NCBI RefSeq assembly: GCF_009914335.1 | Contig: NZ_CP043925.1 | Location: 3,348,001-3,412,000 of the forward strand | Reading direction: 5' to 3' | From: Proteus columbae | GTDB taxonomy: Bacteria; Pseudomonadota; Gammaproteobacteria; Enterobacterales; Enterobacteriaceae | Length of the DNA stretch: 64,000 nucleotides | Shown: positions 13,595-25,025 of the stretch, in pieces | How positions within the stretch are numbered: the stretch's first letter is position 1 | Layout: every line of letters begins with the position of its first letter | Translations under genes and position numbers: made by a program | Notes under the pieces: generated by a model | What the model was told of the DNA's origin: nothing | What the model saw: the letters and a program-made list of their open reading frames with translations, nothing else | Database searches by the model: none

Positions 13595-14302
13595 TTACTT
13601 TACTGCAAAAACCGTAACCAATGTCTTCATTGAGTCACCCGTAATCATAACAAAGTGCATTTTGCTACCAAGATGCTGCCAGAACTCGGCCTCTTGTGCA
13701 TATTTTTTAGCTTTTTTAGTAGCGACGCTTTCTGGTAACTCGGCTTTAGTTAGCGCAGAACATAGCAGCTTTGAGCATAAAGCCTTCCAAGGATGCTTAG
13801 GTACGCCGTCTGAAAGCCGTTCCACGAACCTTTCAAGCGCGTGACGAGTCACCACGACAGGTCCAATGTTCGGAACGTTGATGACCTCATCGATTTCTCT
13901 CACTGTAGCATTATCGACGCTGTATTCTTCGAAGGAATGTGAGAGCCAATCGTCCCGCTTCTCTACCGAGATCTGTGCTTCCTGGTATCGAGTGAGCAAA
14001 AACCTAGTCAGGCTGTAAAGTGAATGCTGAGTTGAGCGTTGTTTCTGTAACTTTTTGATGGCTCCTTTACTGACTCGGATTTGAAGCCCATTGCCGCTTC
14101 GGTTACTCCCGATCACCTCTTTCACTGACAATAGGTGATGAATCGCATAGAGCTCAGCTGCAATTGGCTTTTGCTGCTCAGAAAGCATGTCGTACTGCTC
14201 ACCTAAATTGACCTTTAGCTCGCCACCTCTTCGAATGCCGGTCTTCCAGTAAACTGTAAACTCACCTTCAATCTGCTTTGTTAAAAGGGTTAATACCATC
14301 AT
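13595..14302 (-). CDS. S073-like conserved ICE protein
   Basis: Conserved protein of SXT/R391 elements that marks one side of the traF-proximal hotspot, 235 residues, function unknown. It is rich in Lys/Arg in the middle (VSKGAIKKLQKQRSTQHSLY) and has a conserved-looking VVTRHALERFVERL motif near residue 155, where the His-Ala-x-x-Arg pattern resembles the core of small RNA-interacting or toxin-like proteins. That resemblance is weak. ATG 14302 follows AGGAGAAATAAAC. A terminator upstream separates it from the primase-like gene, so it should have its own promoter at 14303-14363. Confidence 0.75.
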   Translation of the reverse strand: MMVLTLLTKQIEGEFTVYWKTGIRRGGELKVNLGEQYDMLSEQQKPIAAELYAIHHLLSVKEVIGSNRSGNGLQIRVSKGAIKKLQKQRSTQHSLYSLTRFLLTRYQEAQISVEKRDDWLSHSFEEYSVDNATVREIDEVINVPNIGPVVVTRHALERFVERLSDGVPKHPWKALCSKLLCSALTKAELPESVATKKAKKYAQEAEFWQHLGSKMHFVMITGDSMKTLVTVFAVK

Positions 14303-14363
14303 GTTTATTTCTCCTATTGGTTATCTATTTTTCATTCTCCATGTTTTTTTAAATATGCAAGGC

Positions 14364-14388
14364 GCAAAAAAAGGGGCCGAAGCCCCTT
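14364..14388 (-). terminator. Rho-independent terminator after the Toprim gene
   Basis: On the minus strand AAGGGGC-TTCG-GCCCCTT (14371-14388) makes a tight stem with a TTCG tetraloop, followed by seven T. It ends leftward transcription of the DNA-processing cluster before s073. Confidence 0.9.
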
Positions 14389-14391
14389 GGA

Positions 14392-15465
14392 TTAGATATG
14401 AACTTTAGGAAAGCCCATGGCACCGTAAACATTCAGCACATCATTCCAATCCCAACTTTTCACGCCAAGTGACGTTGGTATCGGAGGGATCAGGACTTGT
14501 GTCAGAATGCCTTTCTGCCAAGCTTTTTTCTTGAGTTCATTCGCTGCATTCAGGCCGGTCTCAGAGAGATCGTGATCTGCCCAGATGTACAGCATTTTCA
14601 CATTACTTGGTGGTTCAAACCTAGCCAGTAGCGTTGCATTCACAACCGACCAACATGTTTGTCCCGTTGCTCTGGTAACCGCTAAAGCTGTCTCTATCCC
14701 TTCAGAAACACCTAGTACCTCACCAGGCTCACCAATCGGAATGGCACCGCCAGTGATTGTTCTGTCACTTGGTATCGGCATCATCTTTTTAGGCTTTTCA
14801 ACCGGTGCTTTGAATCCATCTTCACTTAGGTAGATCCGATGAAATGTGGCCGAACGCCCTTGCTGAGTAACGATTTTACCTAGCAGCGCTGGGTAGCTAT
14901 CGATAAACAGACCATCTTCATCATGGTAAGGCAAGTTTGGATGAAACCTCAGCACCGAATCCCATTCAGGACGAAGCCGGGTAACAATGCCACGACGATG
15001 CAAGTAGTTCCAAACTGGTTGCGCACGAGTATCTGCAAGAGATAACGTTTCTCCCCAGGCTTGATTCAAGCGATGGATAATCGCTTTGTCCTCGTCCTGC
15101 TTTCTAGCCTTCCAATCAACAGCGTTACTCGGTATTGCCCGAGATGGTGCTTGTATTTGTCCGGGTTGAATACCTAGAACTTGGCCAATTGCTTCAACAG
15201 ACTGGGCAAAGTTCCATCCATTAATCCAAGACAACAGTTCAAAGCCATCATGAAAGATACCGCAGGTATTACAAACGCCACCACCGGTATATTCAGCATC
15301 TTTGAACAGCCTAAAGCCATCACGACCGCCATGAACAGGACAAGCCACATGACGGCCTTTTCGAGCAATAGCGGCATCAAGTTTTGGCACCAATGCCGCC
15401 AAGACTTGAAGCCATTGGCCATTAAGATATGGCCTTACTGTTTCAATTTGTAAAGGTAACGCCAT
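14392..15465 (-). CDS. Toprim-domain primase-like protein
   Basis: Resembles the P4-alpha/DnaG-type primase family (zinc ribbon plus Toprim), 357 residues. The zinc ribbon lies near residues 42-70 (CPVHGGRDGF, then CNTC). The Toprim domain shows VSEGIETALA around residue 252 and the acidic YIWADHD around residue 292. It could prime the incoming single strand or act in element replication. ATG 15465 follows AAGGAGGTTAT. No helicase domain is fused, unlike full-length P4 alpha. It is the last gene before the terminator. Confidence 0.82.
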   Translation of the reverse strand: MALPLQIETVRPYLNGQWLQVLAALVPKLDAAIARKGRHVACPVHGGRDGFRLFKDAEYTGGGVCNTCGIFHDGFELLSWINGWNFAQSVEAIGQVLGIQPGQIQAPSRAIPSNAVDWKARKQDEDKAIIHRLNQAWGETLSLADTRAQPVWNYLHRRGIVTRLRPEWDSVLRFHPNLPYHDEDGLFIDSYPALLGKIVTQQGRSATFHRIYLSEDGFKAPVEKPKKMMPIPSDRTITGGAIPIGEPGEVLGVSEGIETALAVTRATGQTCWSVVNATLLARFEPPSNVKMLYIWADHDLSETGLNAANELKKKAWQKGILTQVLIPPIPTSLGVKSWDWNDVLNVYGAMGFPKVHI

Positions 15466-15494
15466 ATAACCTCCTTAAGTAAAATGCCGACTCC

Positions 15495-15553
15495 TACCAC
15501 AGGTGGTAAAAGTCAGCTTAGGTCCTGCATTGAGCCGTTTGGTTAATGCAGGA
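15495..15553 (-). promoter_or_regulatory. Structured leader of the Toprim gene
   Basis: Two stems lie in the 90-base gap upstream of the gene: TCCTGCATT/AATGCAGGA (15523-15531 with 15545-15553, a perfect 9-bp stem) and TACCAC/GTGGTA (15495-15508). The layout of stem, short linker and gene start resembles the other leaders of this cluster, but the sequence differs, so I list it separately. Confidence 0.5.
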
Positions 15554-15556
15554 ACG

Positions 15557-15898
15557 TTAGTCAAGCTGGATACCATGTCGTCTTAATAGCCACATGATGG
15601 AATCACGAAGCACATCAGGATCGACAACCGCAGCCATCGCGCAAACACGAAAGCAAAATGGCGCTATTTCGTCATTTTGAATCCACGACAACACATCCTT
15701 GCGCAATCGAGTACTGACACGACCGTCCAGCAATACACGGATCGCATCCAATAAAATGCCTTCGCGTAACTGCCAGATTTCCGTGTCAGACCAAGTGACT
15801 GGGCCATCATCAAACTCAAATAGAAATTCGAGCTGTGATGATGTGTGTTGATGGGACTGCTTTTGTGATGTAGGAGAATGGGCAATGCGCCCATTCAT
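15557..15898 (-). CDS. Conserved ICE hypothetical protein (113 residues)
   Basis: No domain recognised. The first 30 residues are His/Ser/Gln-rich and likely disordered. The rest is predicted helical, ending MWLLRRHGIQLD. Its ATG overlaps the RadC stop (TAATG), so it is probably translated by re-initiation on the same mRNA. Confidence 0.65.
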   Translation of the reverse strand: MNGRIAHSPTSQKQSHQHTSSQLEFLFEFDDGPVTWSDTEIWQLREGILLDAIRVLLDGRVSTRLRKDVLSWIQNDEIAPFCFRVCAMAAVVDPDVLRDSIMWLLRRHGIQLD

Positions 15899-16395
15899 TA
15901 AAGATAACCGCGTTCGGCAAGCGAAACGCAGCCCTCGGATGCGACCACAACATGGTCAAGCGTTCGAATATCAACAAGTGACAAGGCGTCACGGAGTCGA
16001 TGAGTAATGCGTTTATCAGCTTCACTTGGCTCAGGATCACCCGATGGATGGTTATGAACCAATATCACTGCTGCTGCATTAAGTTCTAGCGCTCGCTTTG
16101 TTACTTCCCTTGGATACACGCTCGCCGCATCTAAAGTGCCTTTGAACAGCTCTTCAAATCGAATAACGCGATGCTTTGTATCAAGAAACAGTACGCCAAA
16201 GACTTCGTGCTCATACTCGTGCATCAGTGTTTGCAGGTATGAGAACGCCGACGATGGCTGTTCAATTTTTCGACCTTTACTCAATCGACCACGGGCAAGC
16301 TTGAGCGCCATATCTAAGATATCCGCTTCAGTCACTTGCTCAGGAACGATATAAGTACCGACTTCTTCGCCAGCTAAGAACTTTTTGTTTTTCAT
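15898..16395 (-). CDS. RadC-like JAB/MPN-domain protein
   Basis: JAB1/MPN+ metalloprotein of the RadC family, common on mobile elements; the true biochemical role is unsettled. The JAMM motif is visible (Glu in HEYEHEVFGVLFL; HNHPSGDPEPSEAD; then a Thr-rich helix). The open frame reaches 16431, but I choose ATG 16395 (MKNKKFLAGEEVG), which has GGGGAG just upstream and gives 165 residues. The upstream part is a stem-rich leader. The N-terminal helix-hairpin-helix of chromosomal RadC is missing, as usual for ICE forms. Confidence 0.88.
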   Translation of the reverse strand: MKNKKFLAGEEVGTYIVPEQVTEADILDMALKLARGRLSKGRKIEQPSSAFSYLQTLMHEYEHEVFGVLFLDTKHRVIRFEELFKGTLDAASVYPREVTKRALELNAAAVILVHNHPSGDPEPSEADKRITHRLRDALSLVDIRTLDHVVVASEGCVSLAERGYL

Positions 16396-16397
16396 AG

Positions 16398-16469
16398 GAG
16401 TCTCCCCAAAGAAAAGCGGAGACGAACCCATGCCCTGAAGGGGACGGAATCGTCCCCGCAGGGTGGTAA
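16398..16469 (-). ncRNA. radC-motif-like leader upstream of radC-like gene
   Basis: On the mRNA strand the core reads CCCTG-c-GGGGAC-loop-GTCCCC-tt-CAGGG (16433-16463), two stacked stems with a small bulge, preceded by CCACC and followed by GCATGGGTTCGTC and the ribosome site. The same architecture recurs upstream of at least seven further genes in this cluster. It fits the radC RNA motif in Rfam, which is found in leaders of RadC and DNA-binding proteins of mobile elements. Confidence 0.7.
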
Positions 16470-16480
16470 AATTGATGTGG

Positions 16481-18136
16481 TTACTGAATTAACAGTTGTT
16501 GTGTTACTTCGAATAACTCACGCTTCAGATCTTTGACGTCGTTAATCACGATGCTTTGTGGAAAGAATTTCTCAACACTGCGTGTTTGAATCCCGATCCC
16601 CAGCAGCTCAAAGCCACTGCGTCTGCACCGGTCAACAATGTCATGCGTGGCAGCCCAATCATCTGGGTCACCATCCGTTAGCACTATCATTAGCTTTCGC
16701 TTCTGTTTTTGCGCTAACAAACTGTTTGCCGCAAACCACATCGCTTGTGCCATAGGCGTACAACCTCGTGGTTTTTGGTCAAAACAGGCGGCCCGATGTC
16801 GAACCGATTGCTTGGGCAATAACGCGATAGATACTTCCTGATGAATACCAGGAAAATAACTGACCGCAGGTACAACACCCGGTATGCCTTCCAGTGCCAT
16901 GGCCAAAGCCAAAGCGGCTTCATTGGCAACATGAAAGTACTTTCGATTACCTTCTCCAATGGGTTTACCCATTGAACCCGATATATCGACCAGCAAGTGC
17001 ACAGCAGCATTAGGCGCAATGCGAGGTCGCCTTTGAATAAACAATCTCGACTCACCTGCTTGTGAAGCGGCAAGACGATGGGTTGCAACTCGAAGACCGT
17101 GCCTTTTGGCATGATTCCGATTGTCCTGACTGGACTGAACCATGCCCCTAAGTCGGGCTCGAATTTGAGCGGACTCAGACGCCGATAAGGTCAAGATGGC
17201 CTCATCACCCAACATAGCTTGCTCTGCTTGGGGCAAACTGAGTGGAGTGACACCCTGATGTCCTTCAGCTTGTTCCGACAACACTTCTGCCACTTGTGCA
17301 AAGGTATCGGATTCAAACTGAGCGGCACTGGCCTCTAAGGCTTGTCGCAAATTGTCAGCTTGCTCAGAGTTATCAGAATCTCCCGTTTCAGCAGCATCCA
17401 CCATTGCAGACGAGTCTGCTTCCGGGGTTTGACTGTCACTACTGTTATTGCTGTCATTACTCGCATCTTGTCCAATGTCATTACCGTTATCAGCATCCGA
17501 CTCACCCTGTGGTGGACGAGATTCGTCTTCCAACATGGCAACGATGGCATCGACAAGTTTCAGCACTTCACCTGTAGAGCCTAAGCTAGGCACTGCTGTC
17601 AGCATGGCGCTTAACCGGCTCATCGCTGCGGCAGGAAAGAGTTGTCTCACTCTTTCATCAACTGCTTGATACAAAGGCGTCAGTGCTTTCTGACCGAGAA
17701 AATGGCATCTCAAGCGGAACAACAACCATGCTTGCAAGTTAGATGCAGGCTCAAGCTGTTCAGGTACACACATTTGCTGAGTGTCCACCATGTACTCAAT
17801 CACTTGCGAAATACTGCGCCGGGTTCCGGGGTAATCCTTTGCCAATTCGTTTTCAATTCGCACATCCTCAATGATATTGAGAAGTGCCTTACGGATCGGC
17901 TTGGACGACGCCTTCTGCACCATGTCAAAATTAGTATGCCGAATATGCGCCGCTTCATGAGCCAGATAACCCCAAGCTATCTGTTGATAGTGTGGGTCGT
18001 CTGGGTTTGCTGTTGGGATCACAATCCGCTCACCATCGGTAAACGCATCTTGTCCTTGAATAAGCACCTTCACACCAAACTTTTCGCCATAAGCGGCGGC
18101 AACGATTGGCAGTGCGTTTTTTAATGGATGATTCAT
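16481..18136 (-). CDS. VWA-domain CobT-like protein
   Basis: Partner of the AAA+ CobS-like protein encoded upstream; such MoxR/VWA pairs act as chaperones or metal-insertion machines. It has 551 residues: an N-terminal Zn-peptidase-like helical part with AHEAAHIRH near residue 59, an acidic low-complexity linker (residues 205-265, Asp/Ser/Glu-rich), and a C-terminal VWA domain with the MIDAS motif VDISGSMG near residue 389 and VLTDGDPDD near 500. Conserved in SXT/R391 and IncA/C-type elements; role in transfer unknown. ATG 18136 follows GGAGACTCCC. Confidence 0.82.
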   Translation of the reverse strand: MNHPLKNALPIVAAAYGEKFGVKVLIQGQDAFTDGERIVIPTANPDDPHYQQIAWGYLAHEAAHIRHTNFDMVQKASSKPIRKALLNIIEDVRIENELAKDYPGTRRSISQVIEYMVDTQQMCVPEQLEPASNLQAWLLFRLRCHFLGQKALTPLYQAVDERVRQLFPAAAMSRLSAMLTAVPSLGSTGEVLKLVDAIVAMLEDESRPPQGESDADNGNDIGQDASNDSNNSSDSQTPEADSSAMVDAAETGDSDNSEQADNLRQALEASAAQFESDTFAQVAEVLSEQAEGHQGVTPLSLPQAEQAMLGDEAILTLSASESAQIRARLRGMVQSSQDNRNHAKRHGLRVATHRLAASQAGESRLFIQRRPRIAPNAAVHLLVDISGSMGKPIGEGNRKYFHVANEAALALAMALEGIPGVVPAVSYFPGIHQEVSIALLPKQSVRHRAACFDQKPRGCTPMAQAMWFAANSLLAQKQKRKLMIVLTDGDPDDWAATHDIVDRCRRSGFELLGIGIQTRSVEKFFPQSIVINDVKDLKRELFEVTQQLLIQ

Positions 18137-18139
18137 GGG

Positions 18140-18195
18140 AGTCTCCTAATCATTAGGGGGAATACTCCCTCAGCGGGAGCGTTTCCCCGCTGGTA
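18140..18195 (-). ncRNA. radC-motif-like leader upstream of the CobT-like gene
   Basis: The mRNA strand has CAGCGGG-loop-CCCGCTG (18171-18192, a perfect 7-bp stem) followed by AGGGAGTATTCCCCC and a GGAGACTCCC ribosome-site region that ends at the ATG. It is a variant of the double-stem leaders in this cluster. Confidence 0.6.
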
Positions 18196-18205
18196 ATGTA
18201 AGTGT

Positions 18206-18646
18206 TTAAACCTGTGCTTTTAGCTTATCCAGGTCGTATTTTTGACCTAACCAAGCCACCAATTGAGCTGGACTCTCGTGCTGTTCAAATGACGTTTTAA
18301 GCTGGTCTAAACTCAGGATGTCATCTAATGTCAGACCGTACTGGTCTTGTAACTGAGTAGACACCTCGTGTTGATATTGCAGCCAGGCCCGCTCATGAGC
18401 AGTTTGCTGCAATGCCATGTTTGGAACAAATACCATGGCCGTTACCCAAGCTCCTTGTGCGTCCGCATCTGCGATCAGCACAGGGTTCTTGGGGATCACG
18501 ACACTATGTGTTGAGTACGACCGTTGTGCTAACGTTCGACAACACGCCACTTCTGGTATCGATTCACTTTCAACCGCATCAGTCACACCACGAAAATGTG
18601 GTTCAAACTGGTTCAGTTGGCTGGGGTTATGGATGGTTGATTGCAT
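18206..18646 (-). CDS. Conserved ICE hypothetical protein (146 residues)
   Basis: No domain recognised. There is no signal peptide or membrane segment. The C-terminal half is Gln/Leu-rich and likely helical (LQDQYGLTLDDILSLDQLKTSFEQ). It lies between the DUF3150 and CobT-like genes in the same direction and has its own stem-loop leader, so it belongs to the same regulated set. The start ATG 18646 follows AAGAGGAAATT. Confidence 0.7.
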   Translation of the reverse strand: MQSTIHNPSQLNQFEPHFRGVTDAVESESIPEVACCRTLAQRSYSTHSVVIPKNPVLIADADAQGAWVTAMVFVPNMALQQTAHERAWLQYQHEVSTQLQDQYGLTLDDILSLDQLKTSFEQHESPAQLVAWLGQKYDLDKLKAQV

Positions 18647-18664
18647 AATTTCCTCTTACATAGT

Positions 18665-18705
18665 TCAGAGGACATGCGCCCTTCAGGGCAACATGCCCTC
18701 AAGGA
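18665..18705 (-). ncRNA. radC-motif-like leader upstream of the 146-residue gene
   Basis: The mRNA strand has GAGGGCA-TGT-TGCCCTG (18684-18700) with flanking CCTT...AAGG pairing, then GCGCATGTCCTC, matching the GCATG(G) segment after the stem in the other copies. Confidence 0.55.
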
Positions 18706-18707
18706 CG

Positions 18708-19661
18708 TTAGAAATAAAATGAGTTTGGTAAAGTCGAACCAAGGTTTGGTCTGACGGTTGGTTGTGGTATTGCACGTAAGTTATCTGCCTGAGCAGATAC
18801 TGGCTGTGCGGGTTTAGGTTCAGGTTTGGGCATCAGTTGTCTGATATCCAATTGACCTTCACCGTGCATTCTCATCTTGTCTGGATCAGACAAAATTAAA
18901 ATGGTCGCCATCAGTTCGTGATAGAGATTGTCTGTCACAGGGCCGGTCTTCGGCAGACGAACAAATAAATTGTCCATCGCTTCAACCATCGGCTGGACTC
19001 GATGATCCAGGAATGACAAACCATCCAACTTGTCTCTTAACCGTTTCAGAGGATTAAGGGCTCGCTGGCTGATTTGATTCTTACCTGCAACGGAACGCTC
19101 AAACAGTTCATTGGCATCACGAGCCACCTCCCTAAAGAGGGTGTGTCCCATGCCATTGACCTTGTCATCTAAGCCACCAGCTTGTTCAGCCGGTTGCATT
19201 CGATAGATGGCATAATCGAACTGAAGCCGTTGTTCCACGTCTTCGATGGGTGACAGCGCACGCCGGATTGCATCTGCAAATTCCGGGTGTTTTGCAACCC
19301 AGTCAAACGTCACCTGGTCATAGTTGTCCAAGAACAACTGCTTGCACTGCGCAAACTCCTGACCGATCCGGTCAAGCTCTGGAACAATCTGATCAATTCG
19401 GTCCTCAGGGACGGCATAGCCACCTAAAAACCGCACACCGACTTGCTCACACAAGCGCTGCGCTTCTTTCTTAAGCCTTTCAAAGTTCGCCAATGCCTCT
19501 GGGTCGCAAATTTTTTTACTACCTAAACTGGCAACATCCTTCGGTGGAAGTTGGCTGCCATTAGCTAATCTGAAATCTTCAGGCCTTAGTTTTTTTCTAC
19601 CGCTCCAGATGGAACAGTCGATGTGACAAATCAAAAGTTTGTCGAGGGTTTGAATACTCAT
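18708..19661 (-). CDS. DUF3150-domain protein
   Basis: Member of the family represented by DUF3150, 317 residues, soluble and mostly helical, with the N-terminal signature SIWSGRKKLRPEDF. Function unknown; it commonly sits between CobS-like AAA+ and CobT-like VWA genes, as it does here, and probably works with them. The C-terminus is Pro-rich and ends NSFYF, a tail shared with Exo and, in a YYF form, with the WGR-like protein of this cluster. Confidence 0.8.
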   Translation of the reverse strand: MSIQTLDKLLICHIDCSIWSGRKKLRPEDFRLANGSQLPPKDVASLGSKKICDPEALANFERLKKEAQRLCEQVGVRFLGGYAVPEDRIDQIVPELDRIGQEFAQCKQLFLDNYDQVTFDWVAKHPEFADAIRRALSPIEDVEQRLQFDYAIYRMQPAEQAGGLDDKVNGMGHTLFREVARDANELFERSVAGKNQISQRALNPLKRLRDKLDGLSFLDHRVQPMVEAMDNLFVRLPKTGPVTDNLYHELMATILILSDPDKMRMHGEGQLDIRQLMPKPEPKPAQPVSAQADNLRAIPQPTVRPNLGSTLPNSFYF

Positions 19662-19677
19662 AGTGCATCCTCATGTA

Positions 19678-19730
19678 AGATGGGGACGCACCACTCCCAA
19701 CAGGAGCAATGGCCCCCGTTTGGGTGGTAG
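19678..19730 (-). ncRNA. radC-motif-like leader upstream of the DUF3150 gene
   Basis: The mRNA strand reads CCACCC-AAAC-GGGGGCCATTGCTCC-TGTTGGG (stem region 19696-19724) followed by AGTGGTGCGTCCCC. It has the same outer CCC/GGG and inner GGGG/CTCC pairing order as its neighbours. Confidence 0.65.
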
Positions 19731-19759
19731 TAGTTGACGCGCTAATGGCAACATCACTA

Positions 19760-20524
19760 TCAGAAATAGTAATTTTGCGAATCAGGCGACGATTGGTTGA
19801 GATCGATTTTCACAGGCATTAAGTCCAGTGCTTCAGCTATCGGGCGAACCCGCTCTAAATCACTGCCTAGCAACCGCAATACATCTTTTTCCAACTTCAG
19901 TTGGTCGGATACTTCTATCCCTTCAGGACTCGCTACTGTGAGCGAACACAATGCTGGTAATTGACGCTTAAAGGCCAGTAACAGCAACAATGGCCACGGG
20001 CCATCATCAGTGTTAACAATGCCAGCGCCTTCACCTGACACCATGCTGATTTGATTGGTACTAGGTAATCCGCTTTTGCAAAACCCTAATGACCATTCTC
20101 CAATCCTGACCTGGTTATCATCAATGACAGCCAAGCCATAGGCTTCAAGCAGCTTTGCCATATCGAACAACGCTTTTTGCGCCAGCGAGATTTGGCCATT
20201 GACGTCCTTGCGAGTACGAAACTCCCAACTGACGTTATTGGCGCACGCGACGCTATCTAGCGCATTTGAGAGTTCAAATGGCCGCCCTTGATGATCAATG
20301 CCGACTTGTCCAACAAATCGATAACCCTTGTTGATTTTCTCATTGATTCTTCGGTCTGCTTCTGCGTTAGGATCAGTCGAGTCAATCAATCGCTGCTGCG
20401 ACAATTGACCAGATTTTCCAAACCGAACTTCAATCGCCCGGGTATCTGATCCAACGTAAATGGCCCATTCTTTGGCTGTCCCATCAGAATGACTGTAACG
20501 GTAAAGAGCAAAGCACTTTTCCAT
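19760..20524 (-). CDS. WGR-like domain protein
   Basis: About 254 residues. The N-terminal 80 residues look like a WGR-type nucleic-acid-binding domain (YRYSHSDGTAKEWAIYV, then VRFGKSGQLSQQR and INKGYRFVGQV). The rest is unassigned and ends QNYYF. The frame could open at 20539, but the ribosome site GGGAGGATTG and the overlap with the AAA+ stop favour ATG 20527 or 20524. Translation is coupled to the AAA+ gene. It probably brings the AAA+/VWA machine to DNA; that is inference. Confidence 0.7.
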   Translation of the reverse strand: MEKCFALYRYSHSDGTAKEWAIYVGSDTRAIEVRFGKSGQLSQQRLIDSTDPNAEADRRINEKINKGYRFVGQVGIDHQGRPFELSNALDSVACANNVSWEFRTRKDVNGQISLAQKALFDMAKLLEAYGLAVIDDNQVRIGEWSLGFCKSGLPSTNQISMVSGEGAGIVNTDDGPWPLLLLLAFKRQLPALCSLTVASPEGIEVSDQLKLEKDVLRLLGSDLERVRPIAEALDLMPVKIDLNQSSPDSQNYYF

Positions 20525-20526
20525 CA

Positions 20527-21486
20527 TCAATCCTCCCAATGGTCACCGAAGACATCAGCGGCAATACGGTGAATGGCTTCTCGTTGCTCCAACTCAGCAC
20601 GAGCCGTCAAAGACCGAACCAGTGCATATTCCACTGCGTTAGGAGCGCCTTTAAAAGCAAGTGTTAACTTTGCCCAGCGCACTAAGGTTCGAGTAGACAT
20701 GGTGATACTAAGCTCAGCACCGCCATCCGCTCCCCCAATAAAAAGACGACGAATGTCACCAGCCACCTTCACCATTTTTTGGCGAAAGACTTCTGGCAAG
20801 CCAGGCGCAACGTTCTCCAGAATGGCTTCCTCTACAGAAGGCTCTGCATAGGTCGCTTCGATGATTCTAAAGCGATCAAGAAAAGCCAAATTCTGTTGGA
20901 GCACACCTTGATACAAGCCCGTTTGGTCACCGCTGCCCGCACTGTTGCCGGTTGCGATAAAACGAAACTTGGTATGTGGCATGATGATCTCTCCGCCATT
21001 TTGTGCAATGACCAACGGGGCACCTTCCAAAATGTCATTGAGCCCAGCCAGTTCAGCAGGCTCAGCAAGATCCATTTCATTAATGATCAGCAAATGGCCA
21101 TGCTTGACAGCCAGTGCCAGCGGTCCATATACAAAAGTCATGTTGCCATTAACCAGCGTGTGGTGACCGATAAGATCGGACAACTCCAATCGACCGTGCG
21201 CAGTAATTTGCTGAACAGGCCAATTCAATCGAGAAGCAACTTGGCAAATTAGCGAGGTCTTACCGCATCCCGTGGGGCCTGTAATATACAAACCGTCACC
21301 GTCTGGGTGAGACAAGAACGCCAATACATCACGTAAGTCTTCTTTTCTAAAAACATACTCGTCCTTGCGAACGGGAATGTTTGGATGGGTAGTGTCGGCA
21401 CTAAATCCTTCCAGAACGAAAGCATCAGGAGCCGGGACATTAAACGCTTGATTCACTTGAACCAAAAATGGGGATTGTTCAGTCAT
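20527..21486 (-). CDS. MoxR/CobS-like AAA+ ATPase
   Basis: AAA+ ATPase that pairs with the CobT-like VWA protein. Walker A is GPTGCGKTSL and Walker B is LLIINEMDLAEP; the sensor-1 Asn is in RFIATGNSAG, followed by an arginine-finger region (FLDRFRI). The frame extends to 21603, but the stretch before ATG 21486 (MTEQSPFLVQ) is a stem-loop leader, and GAGG precedes this ATG by six bases, so I use 319 residues. Known in SXT-family elements as a conserved gene of unknown purpose. Confidence 0.85.
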   Translation of the reverse strand: MTEQSPFLVQVNQAFNVPAPDAFVLEGFSADTTHPNIPVRKDEYVFRKEDLRDVLAFLSHPDGDGLYITGPTGCGKTSLICQVASRLNWPVQQITAHGRLELSDLIGHHTLVNGNMTFVYGPLALAVKHGHLLIINEMDLAEPAELAGLNDILEGAPLVIAQNGGEIIMPHTKFRFIATGNSAGSGDQTGLYQGVLQQNLAFLDRFRIIEATYAEPSVEEAILENVAPGLPEVFRQKMVKVAGDIRRLFIGGADGGAELSITMSTRTLVRWAKLTLAFKGAPNAVEYALVRSLTARAELEQREAIHRIAADVFGDHWED

Positions 21487-21504
21487 GGTAAACCTCATCA
21501 GTTT

Positions 21505-21552
21505 TGACGAGGCCCCATGCCCCAACAGGGAATGAAGTCCCCGTCGGGTGGT
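21505..21552 (-). ncRNA. radC-motif-like leader upstream of the AAA+ gene
   Basis: The mRNA strand reads CCACCC-GAC-GGGGA-cttca-TTCCC-TGTT-GGGG-CATGGGGCCTCGTC (stem 21520-21548). This is one of the clearest copies: outer CCCGAC/GTTGGG, inner GGGGA/TTCCC, then a GCATGGGG stretch. Confidence 0.7.
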
Positions 21553-21659
21553 GTGTTGATTGTGGTATGGCTGTGTATGTAAGAGTTCAGCTCGCTCTAT
21601 CATTCGTACCCAGCATTGGCTACGAGTGAAACTGCTTTCTGATGCACTCGATGTAAGCG

Positions 21660-21686
21660 CATGAGAAAGGAGCCGAAATCGGCTCC
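21660..21686 (-). terminator. Terminator downstream of exo
   Basis: GGAGCCGATTTCGGCTCC on the minus strand (21669-21686) forms a strong 7-8 bp stem followed by TTTCTC. It lies ten bases past the exo stop. It may attenuate rather than block transcription into the AAA+ gene. Confidence 0.65.
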
Positions 21687-21695
21687 AAGTGAACG

Positions 21696-22712
21696 TTAAA
21701 AATAAAATGAGCTCAGCGAGTCACCTGGCAGAACCAAGTTCTCTTGCTCAAGGCTGATTTTGATTGGTGTTTCAACGGGCTGATCTGGCTTATTGGTGCT
21801 GATGCGCAACCGCTCTTGTGGCGCTTTTCGGTAAGCGGCTAAAACCTTTTCATCCAGCTCGCCTAACTTATCGGTGGCCAATTGCTTATAGTCCACCGTG
21901 CCCGCCATCATGTAGCGGCTGAGTTTGACCCCAGCATAATCCGCATGAGCGTAGTTACCCATCATGGCGACCAATTTTGACTGAGCGTCTCGCATTTCCT
22001 CTTTCAAAGATTTAATGTGATTTTCCAGTCGGACCACTTCGGCATGTGCTGAGCAATACTGTCGAGACAGCGATGTCCAACGGTATTGGGCTTCACCCTT
22101 GGGAACAAAACAATCTTGCTCAGGGCATTTTGACGGTTCTTTTTTGGTCTGTACTAACTCCCAAAACTGTAGCGCTGTTTCTTGCAACTCAGTTAAGAAA
22201 GCCGCGTCTCGTTGTATTTCAAACTCAATCAGTTGATCCTCAAAATAGAATACCAACCAACCACGCGTGCTATTGGCGACCAGTATTTGATGCTGTACTT
22301 GTACCCAATACAACTGGTACGCCTCGCTTTGTTCTCTGTGAGCTTGCACATCCTCAAAAACTGACTGGCTAGGACATTTCAGTTCAACGGGTTCGCCCGC
22401 ATCGTTGATGCCATCAAAGCTGGCTCGAAAGATTGCGTTATGATCGGCTTCTGCACATAACGGCAGAAGAAAGTCATTATGCGCATTCTCAAATGCTCGC
22501 CTTGCTTGAGGCTCCAACCGTATACCGCGAAGCACATTTGGATTATTCGACAGGTCTTCCGGTAATACGAATCCGGTTTTTTCTGCCCATAATCGCCAAG
22601 GTGTTTTGTAGGGTGAACGCCCCATAATAATTGGGGCTTCAGATGCCGTAACCCCTGCAATGCGCCACTGGTGCCATGCAGGAGTACGCTGTGATAGGTC
22701 GATAACCTTCAT
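21696..22712 (-). CDS. exo: Exo, lambda-type (YqaJ) exonuclease
   Basis: 5'-to-3' double-strand exonuclease that pairs with Bet for homologous recombination, known in SXT to create hybrid elements. It has 338 residues. The YqaJ nuclease core is visible: QWRIAGVTASEAPIIMGRSPY, RASFDGINDAG, VELKCPS and YWVQVQHQ. Those supply the acidic metal ligands and the catalytic Lys. The C-terminal extension is helical and ends SSFYF. It has a leader stem upstream and a small membrane ORF and bet before it. Confidence 0.94.
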   Translation of the reverse strand: MKVIDLSQRTPAWHQWRIAGVTASEAPIIMGRSPYKTPWRLWAEKTGFVLPEDLSNNPNVLRGIRLEPQARRAFENAHNDFLLPLCAEADHNAIFRASFDGINDAGEPVELKCPSQSVFEDVQAHREQSEAYQLYWVQVQHQILVANSTRGWLVFYFEDQLIEFEIQRDAAFLTELQETALQFWELVQTKKEPSKCPEQDCFVPKGEAQYRWTSLSRQYCSAHAEVVRLENHIKSLKEEMRDAQSKLVAMMGNYAHADYAGVKLSRYMMAGTVDYKQLATDKLGELDEKVLAAYRKAPQERLRISTNKPDQPVETPIKISLEQENLVLPGDSLSSFYF

Positions 22713-22722
22713 ATTGCCTCCT

Positions 22723-22767
22723 TTGAGGGGAGACTCCCCCGAAGGAGAGAACTCCCCTTCAGGGTTA
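22723..22767 (-). ncRNA. radC-motif-like leader upstream of exo
   Basis: The mRNA strand reads CCCTGAAGGGGAG-ttctc-TCCTTC-GGGGGAGTCTCCCC (stem region 22738-22764), then the GGAGGC ribosome site before the exo ATG. Confidence 0.65.
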
Positions 22768-22772
22768 AGTGG

Positions 22773-22916
22773 TTACTTTGCAGCTTGTGCTAACGCTGTT
22801 TGGTGCTGAACAACACTTGCTTGAACCGAATCAATTGCCGCTTTACCGGCTTGAATCGAACCTACGACAAGGGCAACAACCAATACCAAGCGAAAAAGTG
22901 AGACTGATTTAGTCAT
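22773..22916 (-). CDS. Small single-span membrane protein (47 residues)
   Basis: Short ORF between bet and exo: start ATG 22916 with GGAGATC just upstream, stop TAA at 22773. The protein begins MTKSVSLFRLVLVVALVVGS, a hydrophobic segment that is either a signal anchor or a transmembrane helix, and ends Gln/Ala-rich (HQTALAQAAK). It has its own double-stem leader like its neighbours, which is good evidence that it is expressed. No function known. Confidence 0.7.
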   Translation of the reverse strand: MTKSVSLFRLVLVVALVVGSIQAGKAAIDSVQASVVQHQTALAQAAK

Positions 22917-22934
22917 GGAAGATCTCCAAAAAAA

Positions 22935-22980
22935 AGACGAGACCTTCCCCCTGACGGGAGAATAATCCCGCCAGGGTTAG
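22935..22980 (-). ncRNA. radC-motif-like leader upstream of the 47-residue ORF
   Basis: The mRNA strand reads CCCTG-g-CGGGA-ttattc-TCCCG-t-CAGGG (22949-22976), two perfect stacked 5-bp stems with one-base bulges. It is the most symmetrical copy in the window. Confidence 0.7.
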
Positions 22981-22998
22981 TAAAATGAATGCGTGGCG

Positions 22999-23817
22999 CT
23001 AAGAAGCTAAAGGCTGTGTGAGCGCTTTGACTGCTTGTTGCTGTGCATTAAATATTTCTTGTTTCGCAAACGTCAGTTCAACACCTTGAAAATGTTCATT
23101 GGCATATTCCAATGCACTATTCCAAGCGTTTGAAGCTTCCGCCCGCTCTATAAGCTTGTAAACAAGCCCTCGGGTTCGATCATCAACTTGCTCGGGTGGA
23201 ATCACTGATGGCTCAACAACGTGTGTTGCTTGGCCTTCGATAATTCGCTCCGCTTCGTCTTGATCGAAAATTCCCACAAAGCCAAACGCAATGCGGGAAC
23301 ACTGGATCATGGATTTATGTCTTAGCATTCGCTTAGTGTGCGTCTGCCATGGACCATCTACACGGTAAGGGCCATTTTTGCCGTTACCTTCAAAAGGCGG
23401 TCGATAGACTTCATCCAGATACTCAGTGATTTTAACTGGGTGCGAACGGTCGCGCCGGTAGATGATGCATTCCATCCATTCCGGGCATTCTTTCGCGCCA
23501 TCCAGTGAGACTTTGTTTTCTGAAGTCTTAAACTCCATGCCATCAAACTGGTCGTGTTGATTAATGATGCGAGACCATCCATCGACACCTACCACTGGAA
23601 TAATCCCAGCTTGTTTATCAGGGAACGCAAAAATCTCTTTGGTGAAAGGGTTCAAGCCGTACTGATCTGCAACCACCAAAAGCGCCATCATCTGCTCATT
23701 GGTAGGTGCACTACCGTCACGTTGCTTGAATGCTGTTGCTTTTAGGGTATCGAACAATTTGTTTGGATCGACACTAAAGCGCTCAGCAAAGCGTTGGATT
23801 AGCTTTGGTTTTTCCAT
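22999..23817 (-). CDS. bet: Bet, RecT/Red-beta-type annealing protein
   Basis: Single-strand annealing recombinase, partner of Exo and SSB. The RecT-family core is seen in KQRDGSAPTNEQMMALLVVADQYGLNPFTKEIFAFPD and GIIPVVGVDGWSRIIN. I start at ATG 23817 (MEKPKLIQRFAERF): GGAG lies eight bases upstream and it gives 272 residues; the longer frame begins with TTG at 23832. SXT is known to use this protein for element recombination and diversification. Confidence 0.94.
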   Translation of the reverse strand: MEKPKLIQRFAERFSVDPNKLFDTLKATAFKQRDGSAPTNEQMMALLVVADQYGLNPFTKEIFAFPDKQAGIIPVVGVDGWSRIINQHDQFDGMEFKTSENKVSLDGAKECPEWMECIIYRRDRSHPVKITEYLDEVYRPPFEGNGKNGPYRVDGPWQTHTKRMLRHKSMIQCSRIAFGFVGIFDQDEAERIIEGQATHVVEPSVIPPEQVDDRTRGLVYKLIERAEASNAWNSALEYANEHFQGVELTFAKQEIFNAQQQAVKALTQPLAS

Positions 23818-23839
23818 TATGGACTCCGACAATCAAAGT

Positions 23840-23880
23840 GGGAGTCTGCCCCTGACGGGAAAGTACTCCCGGCTGGGTTA
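23840..23880 (-). ncRNA. radC-motif-like leader upstream of bet
   Basis: The mRNA strand reads CCCAGC-CGGGA-gtactt-TCCCG-TCAGGGG-CAGACTCCC (23849-23877), the same two-stem plan. Confidence 0.7.
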
Positions 23881-23896
23881 AAGCGTTTTCGCTCGG

Positions 23897-24316
23897 TTAA
23901 AAATCTGGTTCAGGATATGTTTGTGCCCAATTACCTTGGGAGCCCGCATCATCTGCCGGTGATGGCTCGGATGCTTTGTTCACACTATCAAGAAGCAGAA
24001 ACTCGTCCGCGTCCACTTCGGTCAATCGATGCTTAATGCCATCTTTCTCCCATGAGCGCGTGCGCTGGGGCCCTTGAACAAAAAGCTTCGCTCCTTTTTG
24101 GATCAAATCTTTTGCCCTTAGCCCTAACTTAAATCCACCACGATCTCGAAAAACAACCCGATGCCATTCCGTATGCTCTTTGAGCTCATTGGATTGACGG
24201 TCGCGCCATTTCTCAGAAGTGGCCAGCGAAATGCTGGTCACCAAATCACCTGATGGATAGGCTCGCGTCTCTGGCTCAGAGCCAACGTAGCCTATGAGTG
24301 TTACTTGGTTTTTCAT
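23897..24316 (-). CDS. ssb: Single-stranded DNA-binding protein
   Basis: OB-fold SSB of 139 residues. The SSB signature is clear: MKNQVTLIGYVGSEPETRAYPSG, VTSISLATSEKWRD, TEWHRVVF. The C-terminal tip is PEPDF, a reduced form of the usual acidic DDDIPF protein-docking tip. It coats incoming single strands and works with Bet. ATG 24316 has GAGGAG upstream. It is co-transcribed with the small gene before it (15-base gap). Confidence 0.93.
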   Translation of the reverse strand: MKNQVTLIGYVGSEPETRAYPSGDLVTSISLATSEKWRDRQSNELKEHTEWHRVVFRDRGGFKLGLRAKDLIQKGAKLFVQGPQRTRSWEKDGIKHRLTEVDADEFLLLDSVNKASEPSPADDAGSQGNWAQTYPEPDF

Positions 24317-24331
24317 GATGTTCTCCTCGTC

Positions 24332-24658
24332 TTAGTTGAACTCTGTGCACACAGTTGCTTCTACCCGGCTGGGCAAAGAAGACTGACGACGCAGATAGGT
24401 TGGTATTTCGAGTAAAGCCATGTCGTACTGATGTGGCTCTTTGTAAAACGCAGATGTCAAACGGGGCATACCAGGAGCTTTAGGCACTGCCATTGGACGA
24501 CGTTTTGGTTTTGGTGTGAGCAATCGCTTGATTTGAGTAAATACAAATCGAAACGGGCGCACGCTTTGACGAGCAAGCAATCGCAAAAGCGACCAGCTCA
24601 GTTTTGCAAGCAACATAATGCCTGCGATTTGGATAATAAATCCGAAGATATATTCCAT
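24332..24658 (-). CDS. Small ICE membrane-anchored protein upstream of ssb
   Basis: Conserved hypothetical protein of 108 residues. The N-terminal hydrophobic helix (FGFIIQIAGIMLLAKLSWSLL) is followed by a strongly basic segment (RSVRPFRFVFTQIKRLLTPKPKRRP). It is the first gene of the leftward operon and is preceded by a leader stem. Function unknown. Confidence 0.65.
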   Translation of the reverse strand: MEYIFGFIIQIAGIMLLAKLSWSLLRLLARQSVRPFRFVFTQIKRLLTPKPKRRPMAVPKAPGMPRLTSAFYKEPHQYDMALLEIPTYLRRQSSLPSRVEATVCTEFN

Positions 24659-24681
24659 TGGTGACTCCTTATGTTGGTTTT

Positions 24682-24727
24682 GAAGGAGTCACCCCCAACT
24701 GGGGAAAACTCCCCCAGTTGGGTGGTG
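24682..24727 (-). ncRNA. radC-motif-like leader at the head of the ssb operon
   Basis: The mRNA strand reads CCACCCAACTGGGGGAGTTTTCCCCAGTTGGGGG (stem 24693-24722), the longest uninterrupted stem of the set, followed by TGACTCCTTC and the gene's ribosome-site region. This is probably the first leader on the operon transcript. Confidence 0.7.
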
Positions 24728-25025
24728 AAAAGGCGAACCGTAAGGAACGCATGGTTGAGCATGTAAAAACATGCAGGCTATTTGTTTAAGGAGGCTAGCT
24801 ACCTCTTAGTACCACTGAGAAAACTCAGCAGCGGGCTTCCTTTGAGCTCATGCTCTCAGGCGCAGATATCACTGAAACAGATCAGCAATATTTGATAGTC
24901 AGTGTAACCGTCTTATCCAGACAGGATAGTCAGAAAGATGCTCAATTCTTCCACCTAGCTGAAAGGTCATTACCTCACAGAGGATTAGGCTAGGGACTGA
25001 TTATTGTCATATCAGGAGCAAACTT
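24728..25025. promoter_or_regulatory. Divergent promoter region between the ssb operon and the AcaB-like gene
   Basis: About 300 bases without a gene. It must hold the promoters for the leftward ssb-to-Toprim cluster and the rightward gene at 25026. It contains several short inverted repeats (for example GCATG...CATGC near 24750-24772 and CCACTGAGAAAACTCAG near 24812-24830). I cannot place a SetCD site with confidence, although one is expected from SXT biology. Confidence 0.45.

Follow-up and report, generated by a model that had tools for sequence, protein, structure and literature searches.

Gene cluster and two-hairpin leaders

The window analysed here, i.e. the whole 64,000-nt stretch at positions 3,348,001 to 3,412,000 of contig NZ_CP043925.1 of Proteus columbae (searched genome 4.11 Mb, a single contig), contains a minus-strand gene cluster in which nine genes are each preceded by a leader made of two hairpins. 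The genes are, in order, those for a 108-amino acid (aa) protein, ssb, bet, a 47-aa protein, exo, AAA+, a 254-aa protein, DUF3150, a 146-aa protein (p146), a CobT-like VWA protein, and a RadC-like protein. Pfam matches were obtained to SSB, RecT, YqaJ (exo), AAA_5/CbbQ_C (AAA+ gene), DUF3150, VWA/CobT_C, and RadC, and the 108-, 47-, and 146-aa products matched no family in the same search of the cluster proteins. The cluster DNA was 97% identical to four Proteus and Vibrio records in a sequence search, and the host element was read as SXT/R391 type. By order and position we assigned the 108-aa gene as s089, described as the first gene of an operon whose transcription is governed by SetCD (PMC4344509); activation of bet/exo by AcaCD has been described for IncA/C plasmids (PMC4207636). 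Start codons were chosen where a Shine-Dalgarno sequence (SD) precedes (radC 16395, AAA+ 21486), and the longer open reading frames (ORFs) from 16431 and 21603 were not used.

The leaders span nt 16396–24722 on the minus strand, each consisting of hairpin I (HP I) followed after 0–4 nt by hairpin II (HP II), with 49–68 nt from the base of HP I to the end of HP II. HP I has the plan CCC-n-GGG-loop-CCC-n-GGG, its outer CCC not being kept in cobT and p146. The 3′ arm of HP II contains the SD of the gene, adjoining the start codon, in 9/9 leaders. Mean predicted stabilities were -19.5 kcal/mol for HP I and -11.1 kcal/mol for HP II. A preliminary description of this DNA had proposed one shared hairpin plan for these nine leaders; HP I was found in all of them, and every stem pair quoted there was located in the sequence. 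That description lacked HP II with its SD, and its GCATG(G)GG-like stretch was not general, since CATG, ATGG or GTGG was present at that place in only 26 of a set of 103 leaders.

For the analysis of pairing, S1 denotes the upper 5′ arm plus loop of HP I, S2 the other HP I arm, and S3 and S4 the 5′ and 3′ arms of HP II, the SD lying in S4. S1 is complementary to S3 of its own leader, as was first noticed by eye in relatives. The nine leaders are as follows.

24660–24722, minus strand: leader of the 108-aa gene; HP I 24694–24722 (-22.8 kcal/mol), HP II 24660–24693 (-16.3 kcal/mol), SD AAGGAG
23822–23877, minus strand: leader of bet; HP I 23850–23877, HP II 23822–23846; S1:S3 6 bp, -11.3 kcal/mol
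22917–22976, minus strand: leader of the 47-aa gene; HP I 22949–22976, HP II 22917–22948; S1:S3 weak, -5.0
22716–22764, minus strand: leader of exo (YqaJ family); HP I 22737–22764, HP II 22716–22734
21492–21551, minus strand: leader of the AAA+ (CbbQ/CobS-like) gene; HP I 21515–21551, HP II 21492–21513; start at 21486
19665–19728, minus strand: leader of the DUF3150 gene; HP I 19690–19728, HP II 19665–19689
18651–18707, minus strand: leader of p146; HP I 18677–18707, HP II 18651–18672; S1:S3 9 bp
18137–18192, minus strand: leader of the CobT-like VWA gene; HP I 18171–18192, HP II 18137–18169; S1:S3 weakest of the nine, -3.7
16396–16463, minus strand: leader of the RadC-like gene; HP I 16433–16463, HP II 16396–16429; S1:S3 10 bp, -18.3 kcal/mol

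Specificity of the hairpins and complementarity of S1 to S3

Two hairpins were called at HP I ≤ -12 and HP II ≤ -6 kcal/mol. The controls comprised 145 genes taken from 16 other stretches of this genome (two of these stretches border the window and might belong to the element), together with 775 dinucleotide-preserving shuffles with the last 15 nt kept. The cut-off was passed by 9/9 window leaders, 1/145 control genes, 40/775 shuffles, and 33/42 distant leaders, the last being a favourable rate as these were selected by eye from 59 (17 dropped, mostly showing no clear device of both hairpins and S1:S3). The earlier claim that a single structured element is repeated through one DNA-processing operon was supported. 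With S1:S3 ≤ -5 required in addition, the counts were 8/9, 0/145, 21/775, and 29/42, respectively. A scan of the window for SD-bearing starts of ORFs of at least 40 codons, S1:S3 being required, returned 8/9 leaders (cobT missed) and, among the matches listed, five scattered others.

Alignment of whole leaders with MAFFT gave no useful consensus fold; therefore, segment-wise tests and a model of HP I plus linker (R1; 19 training sequences, four of them from the nine window leaders) were used. On 382 kb of this genome R1 detected 8/9 leaders at E < 1, missing p146, with the best match outside the window at E = 5.6. In the whole genome all six matches at E ≤ 1 lay inside the cluster, the top one being the 47-aa gene leader, itself a training sequence. 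In a structure-fitted HP I alignment of 49 rows (47 distinct, one from the wrong strand), 90 cells were changed on both sides, versus 39.5 in shuffles (0/500 as high) and 43 at slide +1; the number of pairs having such change, 6 versus 5.1 expected (59/500 shuffles as high), was not unusual. The proposal that pairing is kept by covariation was supported. Conservation of HP I was mainly in CCC/GGG, and no aptamer core or ligand domain was recognised in it. Within the SXT/R391 family the leaders are nearly invariant, so that covariation gave no information (variable sites 21/218 in HP I stems, 15/158 in HP II stems, and 19/88 in HP II loops, rows with more than 14 mismatches excluded).

The complementarity of S1 and S3 was examined in permutation tests in which S3 segments were swapped between leaders from one source, with the near-duplicate loci L041, L044, and L054 excluded (loci elsewhere carry L numbers). 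The cleanest set comprised all annotated starts in five plasmids that passed the two-hairpin cut-off with S1:S3 ignored, i.e. 55 leaders drawn from 90 having any such fold among 111 starts examined. Pairing with the own S3 averaged -11.97 versus -8.58 kcal/mol when permuted (standard deviation 0.35; 0/10,000 permutations), and a narrower S1 gave -10.59 versus -7.06 (0/10,000). Homologue leaders outside the window (21 from five loci) gave 0/10,000, or 3/10,000 with the narrower S1. By source, the effect was strong in L046, L047, L052, L053, L073, L074, and L078. The nine window leaders alone, with a 9-base S1 arm, gave -10.51 versus -7.82 (5/5000). No effect was seen in the S2 × S3 control (7592/20,000). 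With fixed windows in 135 leaders, partly selected for having hairpins, S3:S4 was better than permuted (z -6.6, 0/3000), and S1:S4, not predicted to pair, gave 218/3000.

S1:S3 had a median length of 9 bp in the 103 leaders. In the 92 with at least 5 bp, the loop of HP I contributed a median of 3.5 bp and its arm a median of 5, which points to strand exchange rather than a loop-only pseudoknot. S1:S3 and S3:S4 shared at least three S3 bases in 90/103 leaders, so that the alternative pairing would compete with both hairpins. S1:S3 was stronger in the mRNA strand than in its complement in 83/103 leaders and weaker in 19, with G-U in 152/874 pairs. Given this complementarity and the S3:S4 arm, S3 could pair either with the SD or with S1. 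An alternative pairing that would free the SD is backed by this covariation between S1 and S3, with the result for the window alone depending on the width of S1.

By predicted energy, the SD is paired in a stable hairpin beside the start in all nine leaders, in agreement with the shared translation-control step suggested earlier. Folding without pseudoknots gave mean unpaired probabilities of SD bases from 0.000 to 0.499 over the nine, the exo SD being half open in the predicted ensemble. In nested folding, making the SD accessible cost a median of 6.6 kcal/mol in 101 device leaders versus 2.2 in the 145 controls. The 11 nt before the CCC of HP I were poor in G (5.1% in 83 leaders versus 17.5–18% in controls), which would suit an unstructured landing site.

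A possible translation switch and competing explanations

We propose, with a probability of roughly two in three, that each leader is a cis-acting bistable switch of translation initiation, in which OFF as the ground state, the direction, and the translational output are inferred. In the ground state S1:S2 and S3:S4 would be formed and the SD hidden. S1, once freed from S2, would pair with S3, beginning at the HP I loop and extending by strand exchange, whereupon S4 would be released and the SD become open to the ribosome (ON). HP I would thus act as an anti-anti-sequestor and would likely be the sensing part; a logic of sequestor, anti-sequestor, and anti-anti-sequestor is familiar from translational riboswitches. 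Each cistron, or coupled cistron pair, would have a separate copy whose S1:S3 code is private to it, such that copies in one mRNA need not cross-react yet may share one input. Three genes without a two-hairpin leader, ssb (starting 15 nt after the previous gene), the 254-aa gene (2 nt after), and a 113-aa gene (1 base inside), look translationally coupled to the preceding gene. Control of these elements has been described at the transcription level, through SetCD (PMC4344509) and AcaCD (PMC4207636), and the switch would act downstream of this activation. In our opinion the opener of HP I is most likely a trans-acting factor or the translation machinery.

Several results weigh against such a switch. 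The two hairpins together are much more stable than the S1:S3 helix by itself, and the ON state would therefore require outside help or kinetics. The gap in median SD unpaired probability was modest, 0.244 in the 101 device leaders versus 0.440 in the 145 controls. In the nine window leaders a narrow S1 (5 arm bases) showed no difference from permutation (823/5000), the wider variants that gave 72, 5, and 8 of 5000 had widths picked after that first result, and S1:S3 was weak in the cobT and 47-aa leaders. No S1:S3 effect was found in L055, a weak one in L080, and in L079 an effect with the narrow S1 (11/5000) and none with wider ones (1134, 2196, and 2872 of 5000). The reversed-S3 control departed slightly from permutation (-5.83 versus -5.25, 4/20,000), mostly owing to L073. 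The figures for the 103-leader set (n = 100 tested; -12.08 versus -8.78, 0/10,000) include 15 leaders, from the matches listed, of a scan that itself used S1:S3; without these 15 (n = 85) the values were -11.88 versus -8.76 (0/10,000). Finally, L075 and L076 (Moellerella and Citrobacter) have a similar gene order yet no device leader.

Translational coupling, in which a ribosome finishing the upstream gene opens HP I and S1 meets S3 with no need of a trans-acting regulator, is the better of the competing explanations, though an unlikely one. The end of an upstream ORF was in reach in 96/103 leaders, the stop codon lying -2 to 0 nt from HP I in 9 of these and 1 to 44 nt away in 52, and IncI/IncB repZ is a precedent. 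However, operon-first genes carry the device too: 7/103 leaders lack any upstream ORF within 400 nt, and in 17 it is 100–400 nt away. In the window the distances are 0 to 31 nt in seven leaders and 144 nt for AAA+, and the first gene lacks an upstream ORF. The call is doubtful in 11 leaders, as the ORF there ends downstream of the point where HP I starts. Plain coupling as the sole trigger does not fit the operon-first genes.

Slightly less probable again is static insulation, that is, hairpins protecting the mRNA or just reducing translation, with S1:S3 having no role. The stability of both hairpins in the window and the much greater stability of the OFF fold would fit it, whereas the S1:S3 match exceeding permutation (0/10,000), with S2 × S3 and S1 × S4 as negative controls, would not. 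Very improbable is a function of the hairpins in single-stranded DNA during transfer, as promoter or protein site, a possibility raised for STAXI RNA (PMC2864571); the DNA-binding or DNA-processing roles of the genes and the conjugative character of the elements would fit it, but at each of the nine starts the SD lies under the 3′ arm of HP II, and the preference of S1:S3 for the mRNA strand in 83/103 leaders disfavours this role.

The agreement with the Rfam radC RNA motif put forward in the preliminary description was rejected at the sensitivity of the Rfam model. At the gathering level no Rfam family, RF01754 (radC) and RF01728 (STAXI) included, matched the window; at E ≤ 10 the region 14300–25000 yielded three unrelated low-scoring families and no radC RNA; and a covariance-model search found RF01754 absent from the whole genome. 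Across 247 genomes of the order the same model located a single true radC RNA, in L056, with 149 model positions and stems unrelated to these leaders. Although one downstream gene is RadC-like and association with DNA-acting genes is a theme shared with radC RNA, membership of the leaders in that family has next to no chance, considering these failed matches and the different length and fold of the real radC RNA.

Other elements, neighbouring features, and known systems

A search with the AAA+ protein gave 55 loci: 13 diverged ones and 42 closely related clusters of SXT/R391 type, among which L055 has diverged somewhat. With the device called at annotated starts as HP I ≤ -11, HP II ≤ -5, and S1:S3 ≤ -5, it was present at 15/29 starts of an IncC plasmid, 13/28 of a Vibrio plasmid, 8/16 of an IncHI2 plasmid, 3/18 of a betaproteobacterial plasmid, and 5/20 of a Pseudomonas plasmid, the last being doubtful as S1:S3 is inconsistent there. 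Device-type leaders were also seen in a Halomonas element, among the matches listed. The device occurred at 0/21 Moellerella, 0/24 Citrobacter, and 0/14 Acinetobacter plasmid starts, and the Moellerella and Citrobacter leaders inspected (8 and 9, respectively) were AT-rich and lacked it. Counts from L091–L100 (109/288 starts at a loose cut-off, among starts listed) were set aside because GC-rich sequence yields many false positives. R1 matched 21/369 genomes of the class at E ≤ 0.01, that of P. columbae included. Searches of 18 of these loci with the whole Rfam library at the gathering level gave an insertion-sequence frameshift element in L078 as the sole match, and no STAXI. In the IncC plasmid (L073), the AAA+ and DUF3150 leaders (upstream of 12977 and 17812) have at least 80 identical bases in common, suggesting that leaders were copied within the element; L046 has a comparable pair of leaders, similar and not identical, and in the Vibrio plasmid (L074) about 200 nt of leader, probably structured, occur nearly identically twice, upstream of 8517 and 20980.

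A further hairpin, probably separate from the two-hairpin leaders, precedes the first gene.

24777–24802, minus strand: hairpin at the head of the operon; loop TAGCTAG, tail AAACAAATAGC

Its pattern, a 4-bp stem, loop TAGCT[A/G]G, and tail AAACAAA[T/C]AGC, recurs in L043–L049, L055, and L073 (in L073 at 11825, 12868, 17703, 21535, and 25949); the exact pattern occurred once in this genome, and a search of the remaining 368 class genomes found no copy. The stem covaries (GAGG/CCTC, GCGA/TCGC, GAGA/TCTC, ACGG/CCGT), one L046 copy, AAGG/CCTG, losing a pair. In the loop and tail, GCTG with CAGC in IncC versus GCTA with TAGC here represents a compensatory change, and since loop and tail change together, a pseudoknot between them is suggested.

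Elsewhere in the cluster, a hairpin of other design precedes a 357-aa gene (15486–15517, minus strand), and a terminator-like hairpin (21669–21686, minus strand) lies between exo and the AAA+ leader. The unrelated exo, 254-aa, and DUF3150 proteins, and products of some distant-locus genes, end in similar aromatic tails (FYF, YYF), which may be a protein-level feature or a by-product of the G-poor tract upstream of HP I.

With doubt slightly outweighing belief, the leaders may represent a class of RNA not described before, namely a compact switch working by three-way strand exchange, placed before most DNA-processing operon genes of large proteobacterial conjugative elements (SXT/R391, IncC, IncHI2, and others), with private codes and one common signal, by which the recombination operon would be held translationally silent and then released together. 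An SD-sequestering leader with alternative folds is of a known kind; new, as far as literature searches go, are this leader family, its repetition before most operon genes with private codes, and its presence across separate conjugative-element groups. No description of these leaders turned up in those searches, though they may have been noted in print before. Elements with these leaders spread drug resistance, and a per-gene translation switch, if true, would be a second control layer on recombination genes and could account for such genes being transcribed but silent. With their dozens of naturally occurring variants, the leaders also constitute an RNA family open to testing, and they provide a natural experiment in which one design carries many non-cross-reacting codes within one mRNA.

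Logic of sequestor and anti-sequestor type acting on the SD is known from riboswitch expression platforms and the IncI/IncB repZ pseudoknot; here, no ligand domain was recognised, no antisense RNA was seen, and there is one copy per gene. The radC RNA motif (RF01754) is likewise of cis-regulatory type in Rfam, with the 149-position model, other stems, and lack of a match here setting it apart. STAXI (RF01728) resembles the leaders in being a pseudoknot-type motif with several copies near genes for DNA-binding or DNA-manipulating proteins, but consists of tandem copies of one pseudoknot, with no link to an SD described in the available part of the source (PMC2864571), and gave no gathering-level match here. 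The nearest experimental precedent for the fold, read here from sequence alone, would be the timP mRNA of the type I toxin-antitoxin system timPR, in which a stable hairpin traps the SD, an upstream stem-loop forms part of a mutually exclusive structure with covariation, and a pseudoknot in that structure is needed for translation, compensatory mutations restoring it (PMC11228461). The same source describes timP as a single gene under an antisense small RNA, as opposed to many copies per operon here; and whereas in timP stem-loop 1 pairs with stem-loop 3 and the SD lies in stem-loop 4 (PMC11228461), S1 of the present leaders is complementary to the anti-SD arm itself.

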